Virus record (IMG/VR): IMGVR_UViG_3300037468_000006
Location: 1-22,828 of that record
From: a virus
DNA: 22,828 nt
Strand: one strand, 5' to 3'
The notes under the pieces: model-generated
Told to the model about the DNA's origin: nothing
Database searches by the model: none
What the model saw: the letters and a program-made list of their open reading frames with translations, nothing else
Shown: positions 4,757-9,215 of the stretch, in pieces
Position numbering within the stretch: position 1 is the stretch's first letter
How the letters are laid out: each line of letters begins with the position of its first letter
Position numbers and translations under genes: made by a program

Positions 4757-5031
4757 AAGACCCAAGACTAACTCGTGCTGGCGTTGAGGGTTTCAATAAA
4801 CCCAAGCGCACTCCAAGCCACCCAACTAAAAGCCATGTCGTTGTGGCAAAAGCTGGCGATGAAGTAAAGTTGATTCGTTTTGGTCAACAGGGAGTATCTG
4901 GTTCACCAAAGCGTGAAGGTGAATCCAAGGCAGACAAAGCAAGACGTGAATCATTCAAGTCGCGCCATTCTGAAAATATTGCCAAGGGCAAAATGAGTGC
5001 AGCATATTGGGCTGATAAGGTGAAGTGGTAA
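4753..5031 (+). CDS. Small basic phage protein (DPRLTRAGVEGFNKPKRTP type)
   Basis: The product has 92 residues. Segments DPRLTRAGVEGFNKPKRTP (3-21), HVVVAKAGDEVKLIRFGQQG (28-47) and the C-terminal ENIAKGKMSAAYWADKVKW look highly constrained. The family is familiar to me from aquatic and marine phage genomes, where it often stands beside the type encoded just upstream, but I know no function. The central part looks like two beta-strands, the C-terminal half like a basic helix. ATGA overlap precedes it and the TAATG overlap follows, joining it to the tail-hub gene, so it is translated together with virion proteins. Confidence 0.8.
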   Translation: MKDPRLTRAGVEGFNKPKRTPSHPTKSHVVVAKAGDEVKLIRFGQQGVSGSPKREGESKADKARRESFKSRHSENIAKGKMSAAYWADKVKW

Positions 5032-6476
5032 TGCAAATACCTATCTTGAACGGTATATATACCGACAACACACCTGAACTGCGTACAGCATACCCAGTGA
5101 ATCTTGTACCAGTACCAAAACAGTCAGGCATCAGTAATGGTTTTTTGCGACCAGGCGATGGGATTGTGGCAAACGGTACAGGGCCAGGCATTGACCGAGG
5201 CGGCATCAACTGGCAAGGCAACCTGTATCGAGTGATGGGTACAAAGTTGGTTGAAATCGACAGCGCAGGCACAGTGACTGTGTTGGGTGATGTGGGTGGG
5301 CCAACAGATCAACTGGTGACTTTTGATTACAGCTTTGATGTGCTGGCGATTGCCTCTGGTGGTCGCTTGTATTATTGGATACCAGTAAACACAACAGCAA
5401 CATTGGTATGGAATCCGACTGCCCCAATTCTGAGACAAGTCACTGACCCTGACCTTGGTGTCGTGCTTGATGTGGCATGGGTTGATGGGTATTTCATGAC
5501 CACTGATGGCGCAAATTTGGTTATCACAGAGTTGACAGACCCAATGCAAGTCAATCCGTTTAAATACGGAAGTTCAGAAGTTGACCCAGACCCTGTGGTG
5601 GCATTGATTAAGCTACGAAACGAGGTTTATGCCCTTAATAGCAACACTATTGAGGTGTTCGACAATGTGGGTGGTGAGTTATTTCCATTCGCACGAATTG
5701 ATGGCGCACAAGTTCAAAAGGGCGTACTTGGCACACAGGCTTGCTGCATTTTCATTGATCGAATTGCTTTTTTGGGCGGTGGTCGAAACGAAGCGCCATC
5801 CATTTATGTTGGTGCAGCCGCAACAACTCAGAAACTAAGCACTCAGGAAATCGACAATCTATTGCTTCAATATACTGAAGCGCAGTTATCCTTGGTCAAG
5901 TTGGAAGCGAGAAATGATAAGAGTCATCAACACCTTTATGTGCATTTGCCTGATCGCACCATAGTTTATGACGCATCCGCATCTGAGGCATTACAAACTC
6001 CTGTCTGGTTCACGCTGACCACAACCATTGCTGGATTTGCACAATACCGAGCGAGAAACTTGGTTTGGATATACGACAGATGGATGGTGGGTGACCCGCA
6101 ATCCACCAATATCGGTTACTTGGTGCAAGACACAGGTCACCATTGGAGTCAACAGGTGCGTTGGGAGTTTGGCACATTGATTGTTTATAACGAGAGTAAT
6201 GGGGCAATTTTTAACGAGATGGAGCTGGTCAGCTTGACGGGTAGCATTGCATTGGGCAAAAACCCGAAAATCAGCACAAGTTACTCTTTGGATGGGCAGG
6301 CTTATTCACAGGAAAAGTATATCTCTGTTGGCACGATTGGCAACCGCCAAAAGCGTTTGGCTTGGTTTCAGCAAGGTCACATGAGGAACTGGCGCATCCA
6401 GCGTTTTCGTGGTGATAGTGATGCCCATGTGTCTTATGTGCGCTTAGAGGCACAGATTGAAGCATTGGCGTACTGA
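5031..6476 (+). CDS. Packaged DNA stabilisation / tail hub protein, P22 gp10-like
   Basis: P22 gp10 forms the beta-propeller hub ring below gp4 and helps close the head after packaging. This protein has 481 residues (P22 gp10 has 472). Matches spread over the whole length: PILNGIYTDNTPELRTAYPV with PVNLVPVPK at the start (P22 has PVNMLATPK), VAWVDGYFMTTDGAN near 150, the NTIEVF segment near 212 (P22 STIEYF), QVQKGVLGTQACC (P22 MVQKGIAGTYCK), APSIYVGAA, and HLYVHLPDRTIVYDASAS (P22 HLPRHVLVYDASSS). ATG 5031 forms a TAATG overlap with the preceding gene; the GTG at 5025 is less likely. Confidence 0.95.
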   Translation: MQIPILNGIYTDNTPELRTAYPVNLVPVPKQSGISNGFLRPGDGIVANGTGPGIDRGGINWQGNLYRVMGTKLVEIDSAGTVTVLGDVGGPTDQLVTFDYSFDVLAIASGGRLYYWIPVNTTATLVWNPTAPILRQVTDPDLGVVLDVAWVDGYFMTTDGANLVITELTDPMQVNPFKYGSSEVDPDPVVALIKLRNEVYALNSNTIEVFDNVGGELFPFARIDGAQVQKGVLGTQACCIFIDRIAFLGGGRNEAPSIYVGAAATTQKLSTQEIDNLLLQYTEAQLSLVKLEARNDKSHQHLYVHLPDRTIVYDASASEALQTPVWFTLTTTIAGFAQYRARNLVWIYDRWMVGDPQSTNIGYLVQDTGHHWSQQVRWEFGTLIVYNESNGAIFNEMELVSLTGSIALGKNPKISTSYSLDGQAYSQEKYISVGTIGNRQKRLAWFQQGHMRNWRIQRFRGDSDAHVSYVRLEAQIEALAY

Positions 6477-6898: not shown

Positions 6899-7218
6899 TT
6901 ACTCCTGTTAAATTAGGCCAAGCCGCCATCACCACTGGCGTGACTACGCTCTATACAGTGCCAGCATCAACTAGAACTCTACTCAAAGAATTCAGCATTG
7001 CCAACACAACTGCAGCCGCCATCAATGTGAGAGTGTTTTTAGTTCCATCAGCAGGCTCGGCTGGAACTGGAAATGCTTTCCTATACGATGTGCCTGTGCC
7101 AGCTGCTAATGCCTTGCAATATAACGGCATTGAAGTACTGAACGCAGGCGATACCATTCAAATTCAAGCGGCATCAACTGGTTTAACAATCATTGCAAGT
7201 GGTGGCGAAGCCACATAA
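6883..7218 (+). CDS. Beta-sandwich-like virion protein, first of a tandem paralogous pair
   Basis: The product has 111 residues, all beta-like in pattern (TTLYTVPASTRTLLKEFSIA near 20-39, then ANTTAAAINVRVFLVPS). It ends LTIIASGGEAT. The next protein has exactly the same length and can be aligned with it: LLKEFSIANTTAAAINVRV against IIDKFTATNTTAGNVTISV, and LTIIASGGEAT against LTIRASGREIT. The pair therefore arose by tandem duplication. Single-domain proteins of this kind are usually virion surface or tail proteins; no function is known to me. The start overlaps the previous gene by 16 bases, with AGGTG at 6873-6877 as ribosome site. Confidence 0.8.
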   Translation: MAFDVITPVKLGQAAITTGVTTLYTVPASTRTLLKEFSIANTTAAAINVRVFLVPSAGSAGTGNAFLYDVPVPAANALQYNGIEVLNAGDTIQIQAASTGLTIIASGGEAT

Positions 7219-7228
7219 GGAGTATGAA

Positions 7229-7564
7229 ATGACAGTATCAATCAAGGTGCTGATACCACCAAAACAGGCCGAAAACACACAGACTACGCAGTACACAGCG
7301 ACCAACTGTAAAGCGATCATTGACAAATTTACTGCCACCAATACAACGGCAGGAAATGTGACGATCAGTGTTAACTTGGTGACAAGTGGCGGCACAGCAG
7401 GAGCAGCCAACTTGATCGTGGATACACGAAGCATTGCACCAGATGAGACCTATACATTCCCTGAATTGGTTGGTCAAGCATTAGAGTCTGGTAGTTTCAT
7501 ATCCACCATTGCCAGCGCAGCCACATCGTTGACAATCCGAGCATCAGGCCGAGAAATCACTTAA
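7229..7564 (+). CDS. Beta-sandwich-like virion protein, second of the tandem pair
   Basis: The product has 111 residues and is a diverged paralogue of the preceding gene product. The shared core runs QYTATNCKAIIDKFTATNTT then VTISVNLVTSGGTAGAANL, with the same closing motif LTIRASGREIT. The start 7229 is set by AAGGAG at 7217-7222 with six-base spacing; an upstream in-frame ATG at 7193 lies within the previous gene and lacks a ribosome site. Duplicates with diverged surfaces often build heteromeric or alternative virion decorations; that is inference. A Cys at about 27 has no partner. Confidence 0.8.
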   Translation: MTVSIKVLIPPKQAENTQTTQYTATNCKAIIDKFTATNTTAGNVTISVNLVTSGGTAGAANLIVDTRSIAPDETYTFPELVGQALESGSFISTIASAATSLTIRASGREIT

Positions 7565-7575
7565 AGGAGCTAGAA

Positions 7576-7971
7576 ATGAAAGAATTTATGGTTATTCCAC
7601 GGGGCTTTAATGGCTTGCCGATGGAAGAAGAATTTTTGACCAACTCAGAGAATAAAAAGAACTATGCCGTTGCGGTTGCTGATTGGAACTATGGCCCTGA
7701 AATGCCCACCAATGAGGCTGGCGCAAATAAGGAGTTCTACGCAGGATTGGCAGAGGCGATGCAATGTGATGAAAAAGACGCAAGACGCAAGCATTGCTCG
7801 AACTGCGAGTATTACGACAACAGCTTTATGACCCAAGTCAGAATTGAGCGTATCCCAATGGCGGCTTATGACAAGGGCGCAGGGTTCAGGGGTCACTGCG
7901 AAAAACTGAACTTTATCTGCAACGATATGCGGGTTTGTCAGGCTTGGGAAGATGAAGAAGAAGAAGATTGA
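7576..7971 (+). CDS. Cysteine-rich protein with HiPIP-like (high-potential iron-sulphur) Cys pattern
   Basis: The product has 131 residues. Cysteines lie at 64, 74, 77, 108, 115 and 121. The pattern C74-x2-C77-EYYD, then GHC108, then C121-x2-W resembles high-potential iron-sulphur proteins, in which C-x2-C-aromatic is followed by GWC and a final C-x2-W; the last spacing here (12 residues) is near the 13 of classical HiPIPs. The segment between C77 and C108 is longer than in the short HiPIPs. No signal peptide is visible. The tail is very acidic (EDEEEED). AAGGAG at 7564-7569 is the ribosome site. It sits among virion genes, so a metal-bearing virion or assembly protein is possible. A zinc site is the main alternative. 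Confidence 0.75.
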   Translation: MKEFMVIPRGFNGLPMEEEFLTNSENKKNYAVAVADWNYGPEMPTNEAGANKEFYAGLAEAMQCDEKDARRKHCSNCEYYDNSFMTQVRIERIPMAAYDKGAGFRGHCEKLNFICNDMRVCQAWEDEEEED

Positions 7972-7995
7972 CCTTTTGCCAATTTGTGCGAAAAT
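7968..7995 (+). promoter_or_regulatory. Candidate sigma70 promoter before the cupin-like/ejection genes
   Basis: TTGACC (7968-7973), a 16-base spacer and GAAAAT (7990-7995) with an extended TGC directly before it make a fair sigma70 promoter. It begins at the stop codon of the cysteine-rich gene, in one of the few intergenic gaps of the late block (7972-8046). The predicted start is near 8002. It could boost ejection-protein transcription beyond the attenuating terminator at 2870. The -10 box matches only 4 of 6 positions, so it is a candidate only. Confidence 0.4.
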
Positions 7996-7998
7996 CAA

Positions 7999-8024
7999 GC
8001 CGCTGAGTTCTGGCATCCAGCGGC
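7999..8024 (+). other. GC-rich hairpin in the leader of the cupin-like gene
   Basis: A perfect 7-bp stem, GCCGCTG with CAGCGGC, encloses a 12-base loop (8006-8017). No T-run follows, so it is not an intrinsic terminator. It may be an RNA processing or stability element, or an operator-like dyad next to the candidate promoter. If transcription starts at about 8002 the left arm would be partly missing from that transcript, so it would work mainly in read-through RNA. Confidence 0.5.
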
Positions 8025-8028
8025 CTGC

Positions 8029-8038
8029 CCTAATTAGG
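8029..8038. promoter_or_regulatory. Perfect 10-bp palindrome overlapping the ribosome site
   Basis: CCTAATTAGG reads identically on both strands and overlaps the Shine-Dalgarno AGGAG (8036-8040) of the gene at 8047. Its half-site ATTAGG also forms the perfect dyad near the leftward promoter at 22754-22773. A shared DNA-binding protein is conceivable but a 10-bp palindrome can also arise by chance. Confidence 0.3.
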
Positions 8039-8046
8039 AGTTGTGC

Positions 8047-8496
8047 ATGGTTGTCCAAATAATAGATGCAAAAGTCCCTGCTGAACATTTGCCTATTTAT
8101 CGCTTAGAAGGTGCGCTTTTACAGCTTCCACAAGTGGATATGCCTGTTCAGCACGCATTTTGTGCTGGTCTATACGCACGAACAATGCACATTCCTGCTG
8201 GCACGGTATTGACTGGCGCTGTTCACCGCGAAGAATCTTTTTTCTTGGTACGCAAAGGTGACTTGATTGTCAGCACTGATACAGGCCCAAAACGTTTAGG
8301 GGCAGGTGACATGAGCATTTCACGAGTAAATACAAAACGTGCTGGCATTGCTTTGACCGATGTCGAGGTAACCACATTTCATGCAAACCCAACCAATGAG
8401 CAAGAACCACAAAAATTATGGGACTTGTTTACCATTCCAGCGCCAGCACCAGTTCTTGAAACTGCACAGACAGCGCAATTGGAGGAATCAAAATGA
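8047..8496 (+). CDS. Cupin-like (double-stranded beta-helix) protein
   Basis: The product has 149 residues. Residues 35-113 read like a single cupin barrel: a strand pair with HIPAGTVLTGAVHREESFF (48-66), a VRKGDLIVS turn (69-76), GAGDMSIS (86-93) and VEVTTFHANP (107-115). Canonical cupin motif 1 (G-x5-HxH-x3-4-E-x6-G) is only partly kept: H60, E62 or E63 and G71; H112 could complete a metal site. The last 30 residues are an acidic, Ala/Pro-rich tail. It has no signal peptide. It sits between the Cys-rich gene and the ejection proteins, suggesting a virion or assembly role rather than metabolism. AGGAG at 8036-8040 supports ATG 8047. Confidence 0.75.
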   Translation: MVVQIIDAKVPAEHLPIYRLEGALLQLPQVDMPVQHAFCAGLYARTMHIPAGTVLTGAVHREESFFLVRKGDLIVSTDTGPKRLGAGDMSISRVNTKRAGIALTDVEVTTFHANPTNEQEPQKLWDLFTIPAPAPVLETAQTAQLEESK

Positions 8497-9215
8497 CATT
8501 CGGACTATCAGGAGCAGCACTGGCAGGCATTGCCGTTGGTGGTGCAACGCTTATCTCTGGCTTGGCTCAATCAGAAGCAGCAGAAAGCGCTGCAGCAGCA
8601 CAAACAGGTGCAGCTCAAGCAGGCATTGAAGAACAGCGCAGACAGTTTGATGCTTTACAAGCGCTATTAAAACCCTATGTAGAGGTTGGTGTGCCAGCAA
8701 TGGCTCGTTTTCAAGCATATGGTGAAGCAGGGCCAAAAGCATTTGAACAACAGCAAGCATTAGCGGGTATTCTTGGCCCTGAAAGACAGAGAGCAGCGAT
8801 TGCCGAAATTGAGCAAGGCGGTGGCTTTCAAGCCAGAGTGCAAGCTGGTGAAGAAGCGTTATTGCAACGTGCATCTGCAACAGGTGGATTGCGTGGTGGG
8901 AATATCCAAGCTGCATTGGCTCAATTTAGGCCACAAATGTTGGAACAAGAAATTCAACGCCAATATGGAAGACTTGGTGGATTTACAGATATTGGTCGTG
9001 AAACAGAAGCTAATTTGCTAAAAATAGGTCAAGCATCTGCGGCAGGCGTAGGCGCACAGGGTATAACTACTGGAACAAATATTTCAAACTTGTTGGCTCA
9101 ACAAGGTGCAGCACAAGCTGGCGCTGAGATAGCACAGGGCAGAGCAATTGGTGCAATCCCAGCAGCAATATCTGGCGGCCTTGGATTATTCAGCGGTCTC
9201 GGAGGTAAATTCTGA
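8493..9215 (+). CDS. DNA ejection/transfer protein, P22 gp7 position
   Basis: The product has 240 residues. The N-terminus has a Gly/Ala-rich hydrophobic segment (about 6-27, AALAGIAVGGATLISGLAQ) followed by an Ala/Glu/Gln-rich helix. The middle QRRQFDALQALLKPYVEVG (about 48-66) and RVQAGEEALLQRASATGGLR with GGNIQAALAQFRPQ (about 115-148) are hallmarks of phage proteins usually annotated as DNA transfer or internal virion proteins. The C-terminus is again Gly/Ala-rich. Such proteins are carried in the capsid and injected to form a conduit through the cell envelope. The ribosome site is GGAGG at 8481-8485; ATGA overlap with the previous gene. Confidence 0.85.
   Translation: MTFGLSGAALAGIAVGGATLISGLAQSEAAESAAAAQTGAAQAGIEEQRRQFDALQALLKPYVEVGVPAMARFQAYGEAGPKAFEQQQALAGILGPERQRAAIAEIEQGGGFQARVQAGEEALLQRASATGGLRGGNIQAALAQFRPQMLEQEIQRQYGRLGGFTDIGRETEANLLKIGQASAAGVGAQGITTGTNISNLLAQQGAAQAGAEIAQGRAIGAIPAAISGGLGLFSGLGGKF

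Follow-up and report, generated by a model that had tools for sequence, protein, structure and literature searches.

The gene at positions 7,576 to 7,971 of the viral DNA analysed here (IMG/VR record IMGVR_UViG_3300037468_000006; the window is the whole stretch of 22,828 nucleotides, which makes up the entire record) encodes a small five-cysteine protein, P0001, for which a HiPIP-like nature is the best-supported reading on the strength of sequence comparison and predicted structure. We estimate at about 50% the probability that P0001 is a HiPIP-type [4Fe-4S] metalloprotein of a phage-specific family, which is made late and serves as a virion-associated redox or iron module. The features of the gene and its neighbours were as follows.

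5025..6476, + strand: upstream neighbour, P22 gp10-like head closure/phage stabilisation protein (phrog_578, E 1e-95; PF11134, E 8e-37).
7563..7569, + strand: Shine-Dalgarno sequence AAAGGAG, 6 nt 5' of the ATG (read directly).
7576..7971, + strand: HiPIP-like five-cysteine protein P0001, 131 aa, acidic C-terminus (ORF reading, family and dN/dS).
7795..7806, + strand: C74-S-N76-C77, proposed first ligand pair, with C, N and C invariant (aligned with HiPIP C43/C46).
7891..7899, + strand: G106-H-C108, proposed third ligand, with G and C invariant; AF2 strand 105-108 (aligned with HiPIP C63).
7918..7920, + strand: C115, fifth invariant cysteine, without a HiPIP counterpart; strand 113-116, facing the strand of C108 in the hairpin.
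7936..7947, + strand: C121-Q-A-W124, proposed fourth ligand and conserved tryptophan (aligned with HiPIP C77/W80).
8047..8496, + strand: downstream neighbour, cupin-like, related to short tail fibre proteins (phrog_12032, E 9e-31).
8493..9215, + strand: downstream neighbour, DNA ejection protein (phrog_598, E 8e-28).

The open reading frame, its coordinates, the 131-residue length, C74-x2-C77-EYYD, GHC108, C121-x2-W and the acidic tail had been described in an earlier note on this DNA and were found exactly as stated there. The protein reads C74-S-N-C77-EYYD, GHC108, FIC-N around C115 and C121-QAW, with the tail EDEEEED; all four cysteines named in the note stood, but the invariant fifth, C115, had been overlooked. 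Judged by eye, the N-terminus (MKEFMVIPRGFNGLPMEEEF) carries neither a twin-arginine signal nor a hydrophobic stretch. A loose regular expression for the cysteine pattern matched 39 of 100,000 shuffles of P0001, and zero of the other frames of at least 60 aa in the window. Scans for promoters, terminators and RNA structure flanking the gene revealed nothing above chance, and an antisense ORF that overlaps it (7645-8088) was unsupported.

Far stronger evidence than this shuffle-based estimate of chance comes from conservation. The family was collected by six IMG/VR scans (the best 80 loci of each, with hundreds more matching) and from GenBank phages, and at least 364 loci were reduced to 242 unique domain sequences among the matches listed. 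In these 242 non-redundant relatives among the matches listed, C74, C77, C108, C115 and C121 were 100% conserved, G40, N76 and G106 were likewise invariant, and F113 and W124 were near-invariant; a further cysteine of P0001, C64, was poorly kept (17% C among relatives). Homologues lacking any of C74, C77, C108 and C121, which the earlier note had regarded as fatal to its reading, were thus absent from this set. In 52 distinct close nucleotide variants of the gene dN/dS was 0.029, and all changes in the cysteine codons were synonymous.

The relatives fell into five groups. Group A (window-like, at least 95% identical) and group B (about 60% identity) carry the gene in a P22-like tail/ejection module. 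In group C (about 36% identity) and in the marine, CRP-13-like group E (about 33% identity) the gene lies upstream of the terminase gene and outside the tail module, in part adjoining NinB-like genes. Roseophage CRP-13, which is in culture, has a distant homologue, gp68, at 34% identity across half of the query (E 0.3), which was kept on profile search. The genes of group D (about 26% identity) are found on giant actinophage-like contigs, adjoining capsid maturation proteases. Among bacterial genome contigs there was a single match (L366), itself on a phage-like contig, and the family was present in 1 of 300 genomes of the order concerned, which implies that it is essentially viral. Searches of PHROGs, Pfam and NCBIfam with P0001 returned no significant family; the matches to UCH_1 (E 0.11), DUF7140 (E 0.004, below its cut-off) and L32 were taken as chance or motif-level.

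To judge how firmly the gene belongs to its locus, a blind set was assembled from loci found through a neighbour, either the ejection gene downstream or the stabilisation gene upstream; the cysteine protein itself was left unused, and enough flank was required. A homologue of P0001 was present in 54/54 and 41/43 of the loci selected by these neighbours. The blind loci contained 130 homologue matches, 122 of which had the full five-cysteine motif, seven were cut by a contig end and one (L427) carried Q in place of W124 with its five cysteines kept; all matches uncut by contig ends therefore retain the five cysteines. In L480 the place of the HiPIP-like gene, between a g7193 homologue and the ejection gene, is filled exactly by an unrelated 173-aa ORF (7091-7610), which implies that a P0001-type protein is not strictly indispensable as a structural component. 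The gene is near-core but replaceable in the P22-like tail/ejection module. The cupin-like gene at 8047-8496 lies directly 3' of the P0001 gene, only some relatives possess such a gene, and the Cupin_2 match to its product was weak and under its cut-off.

The relationship to HiPIPs was assessed with a profile of eight solved HiPIP rows, four of them confirmed as full-length identical PDB matches and four taken from PDB alignments. When 46 family sequences were aligned to these eight HiPIPs with hhalign (E 2e-4, probability 46%), C74, C77, C108, C121 and W124 were paired with the HiPIP ligands and tryptophan, and C115 remained unpaired. The four cysteines in the HiPIP order (C-x2-C, C, C-x2-W) are invariant in the family, with the fifth in addition. 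The HiPIP motif given in the earlier note was slightly off: its GWC and C-x2-W are not separate sites, since both belong to the one fourth cysteine (..NGWCASW); the third cysteine of HiPIPs usually lies in G-x-C or GC. The loop between C77 and C108, which the note had called longer than in the short HiPIPs, indeed has 30 residues as compared to at most about 16 in the aligned solved HiPIPs.

At the level of sequence models the resemblance was fainter: PF01355 (cut-off 22 bits) and NCBIfam left P0001 unmatched, and among the family members the best match to PF01355 reached only E 0.044. These unmatched models and weak E-values could reflect a convergent cysteine pattern that is unrelated to HiPIPs and possibly metal-free (e.g., with disulfides). 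However, when columns were shuffled with the HiPIP cysteine columns held fixed, 0 of 100 shuffles attained the observed score (27.7 observed, best shuffle 21.7). Moreover, two fold searches concur, and the reducing cytosol speaks against disulfides. We consider such convergence very improbable.

In the fold searches, the AF2 model of P0001 (pLDDT 86.7, pTM 0.76) was compared with 350,542 PDB chains, and the top 15 matches were all HiPIPs (probability up to 0.97). A second AF2 model, headed by a 103-residue, 34%-identical marine member of the family (pLDDT 87.0), returned HiPIPs in 8 of its 9 top matches (probability up to 0.99, TMt 0.64). The remaining match, 2y8n_B, we take to be a small [4Fe-4S] subunit as well. 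Apart from HiPIPs, the two models had practically no credible match in the PDB. The models were built without metals and are not fully independent of each other, because they share alignment rows. The Foldseek matches of both models to HiPIPs had E-values of only 0.02-1 and TMq of 0.40-0.54; as no fold match reached E 0.001, the fold evidence is strong in specificity and weak in raw significance. According to DSSP, C108 and C115 of the model stand on facing strands of one hairpin (105-108 and 113-116), so that both could point at one site. The earlier note had named a predicted fold with the four cysteines far apart as evidence against its reading; the model instead appears HiPIP-like.

The main rival to the HiPIP-like Fe-S reading is zinc binding, whereby the five cysteines would hold structural zinc and P0001 would be a fold-stabilised adaptor or scaffold for head or tail assembly, devoid of any redox role. 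Compact Cys-rich phage domains usually bind zinc, C115 could serve as a ligand, and a cytosolic location is ill-suited to a classical HiPIP. The first phmmer match was the zinc-ribbon ribosomal protein L32 (E 1.4, not significant), but its cysteines sit in two CxxC-type pairs, unlike those of P0001. Moreover, no zinc ribbon was recognised in the PDB fold matches of either model, whose top ranks are filled by HiPIPs, and paired CPxCG-type knuckles, with their characteristic glycine, are absent from the motif, whereas the HiPIP-type CxNCxx[FY] and CxxW are present. We regard zinc as a somewhat unlikely explanation. As for the HiPIP-likeness proposed in the earlier note, the profile register, the fold search with two models and independent GenBank names speak for it, but membership in PF01355 did not hold: the failure of the Pfam model, the missing export signal and the invariant fifth cysteine lead us not to assign P0001 to the HiPIP family. 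Functionally, P0001 probably behaves as an Fe-S module of the HiPIP type.

Fusions of the five-cysteine domain were informative about its surroundings. On a Burkholderiales MAG contig (L366:849-3926) it is joined to an S78 prohead protease and an HK97 major capsid protein in one ORF of 1025 residues, and L362:2650-4746 combines ChaB, the five-cysteine domain, anti-CBASS Acb1 and an XkdF-type protease in a single ORF, which places an anti-defence domain inside a head-maturation polyprotein. An ORF of 2218 aa (L160:3517-10170) contains the domain together with ferritin, DUF5824 and matches to portal and head-maturation-protease PHROGs. In a viral structure library, the domain was found in proteins named prohead protease, portal, Dps and XkdF. 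The ORFs of group D possess a second, four-cysteine domain (C-x2-C-x8-C-x12-C), which matched HiPIPs better than the five-cysteine domain did (probability 89%, E 2e-6). In 21 of the best 80 giant-phage loci the ORF also contained a Dps/ferritin domain; Dps fusions were limited to the giant-phage group among the matches listed, and the window showed no recognisable Dps. Two different HiPIP-like domains were observed within one ORF in L147:3726-5969, L118:3945-6017, L160:3517-10170 and L172:5773-7626, and the first three of these add Dps/ferritin (and DUF5824) and lie near capsid proteases; they possibly represent a packaged iron/redox system.

Given its fusion partners (prohead protease, major capsid protein, Dps/ferritin and Acb1), the domain probably serves as cargo linked to head assembly or as part of the virion, and a putative virion link of P0001 is supported by both gene position and fusions. 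Alternatively, a HiPIP-like Fe-S protein could act in the infected cell, in redox or iron handling late in infection or in defence evasion, and its proximity to virion genes would then reflect late expression only. The genes of groups C and E outside the tail module, the replaceable slot in L480 and the fusion bearing Acb1 are in accordance with this. However, in several lineages the prohead protease and major capsid protein fusions put the domain in the assembling head, and in groups A and B the gene keeps a stable place, flanked by head closure and ejection genes; a role confined to the infected cell appears quite unlikely to us.

In the virion-associated model that we infer for the cluster type, iron, virion presence, ejection and redox role, P0001 would be a small protein that folds in the cytosol and shares the HiPIP fold. 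C74, C77, C108 and C121 would most likely be the ligands of a [4Fe-4S] cluster that W124, F113 and the aromatic residues at 79/80 shield, and C115 would stand beside it as a fifth, phage-specific cysteine. Produced late, alongside proteins for head closure, the tail and DNA ejection, P0001 would most likely serve as a redox or iron module in the capsid interior or neck, possibly delivered with the DNA, and other phages would make the same module within head-maturation-protease or capsid polyproteins. More speculatively, five-cysteine HiPIP-like [4Fe-4S] modules might constitute a dedicated, phage-specific capsid cargo made in the head-maturation polyprotein, to which some giant phages add a second HiPIP-like domain and Dps/ferritin domains. 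Iron or redox capacity would then be packaged with the DNA for protection or for action on the host at entry, and the fifth cysteine would enable cluster chemistry unseen in cellular HiPIPs. We hold this broader proposal to be unlikely.

Should P0001 indeed bind such a cluster, the abundant P22-like phages would possess an Fe-S protein as a near-core late gene product, one that is also found in several further lineages and has, in part of these, a tie to capsid assembly. An unexplained annotation would thereby become a testable question, namely whether phage particles contain redox-active iron and what purpose it has, and the fusion partners Dps, prohead protease, major capsid protein and Acb1 offer handles on function. 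Since this widespread virus-borne family appears related to the iron-sulfur electron carriers of bacteria, and its domain is joined to capsid-building enzymes in other viruses, many virus particles may contain built-in Fe-S chemistry.

The resemblance itself had already been noticed, as the homologues UOF82792.1, UOF80684.1, UOF77097.1 and WJZ48512.1 (27-55% identical) are named 'high potential iron-sulfur protein' in GenBank. Such names on phage homologues are automatic or HHpred-based only; the authors of phage DSL-LC01 demanded an HHpred probability >95% for HHpred-based names (PMC10611076). Our literature search on phage HiPIPs found no description of the family, the fifth cysteine or the fusions. 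Like the phage polyvalent proteins (Iyer et al. 2017, PMC5512222, whose main text leaves HiPIP, iron-sulfur and ferritin unmentioned), the fused forms are multidomain and are encoded next to virion proteins or as one with them; polyvalent proteins are thought to be injected. P0001 resembles HiPIPs (PF01355; PDB 1b0y, 1hlq) in the C-x2-C ... G-x-C ... C-x2-W order, in CxNC followed by an aromatic residue and apparently in the predicted fold. In contrast, HiPIPs have four cysteines and a Tat signal, whereas the phage family has five invariant cysteines and P0001 has no recognisable signal peptide; it also differs in its extra N-terminal helices, its acidic tail, its gene in a phage late module and its score below the Pfam threshold. 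The earlier note had thought iron or redox chemistry in a virion unusual, but precedents exist: according to PMC7296036, which cites Tam 2013, an Fe-S cluster is present in the RcGTA hub and in tail tips of the lambda gpL type. This is a different protein, with four cysteines in a domain of the long-tail hub, and we saw no sequence relation to P0001; the likeness would lie in an Fe-S cluster held by a tail or particle protein.
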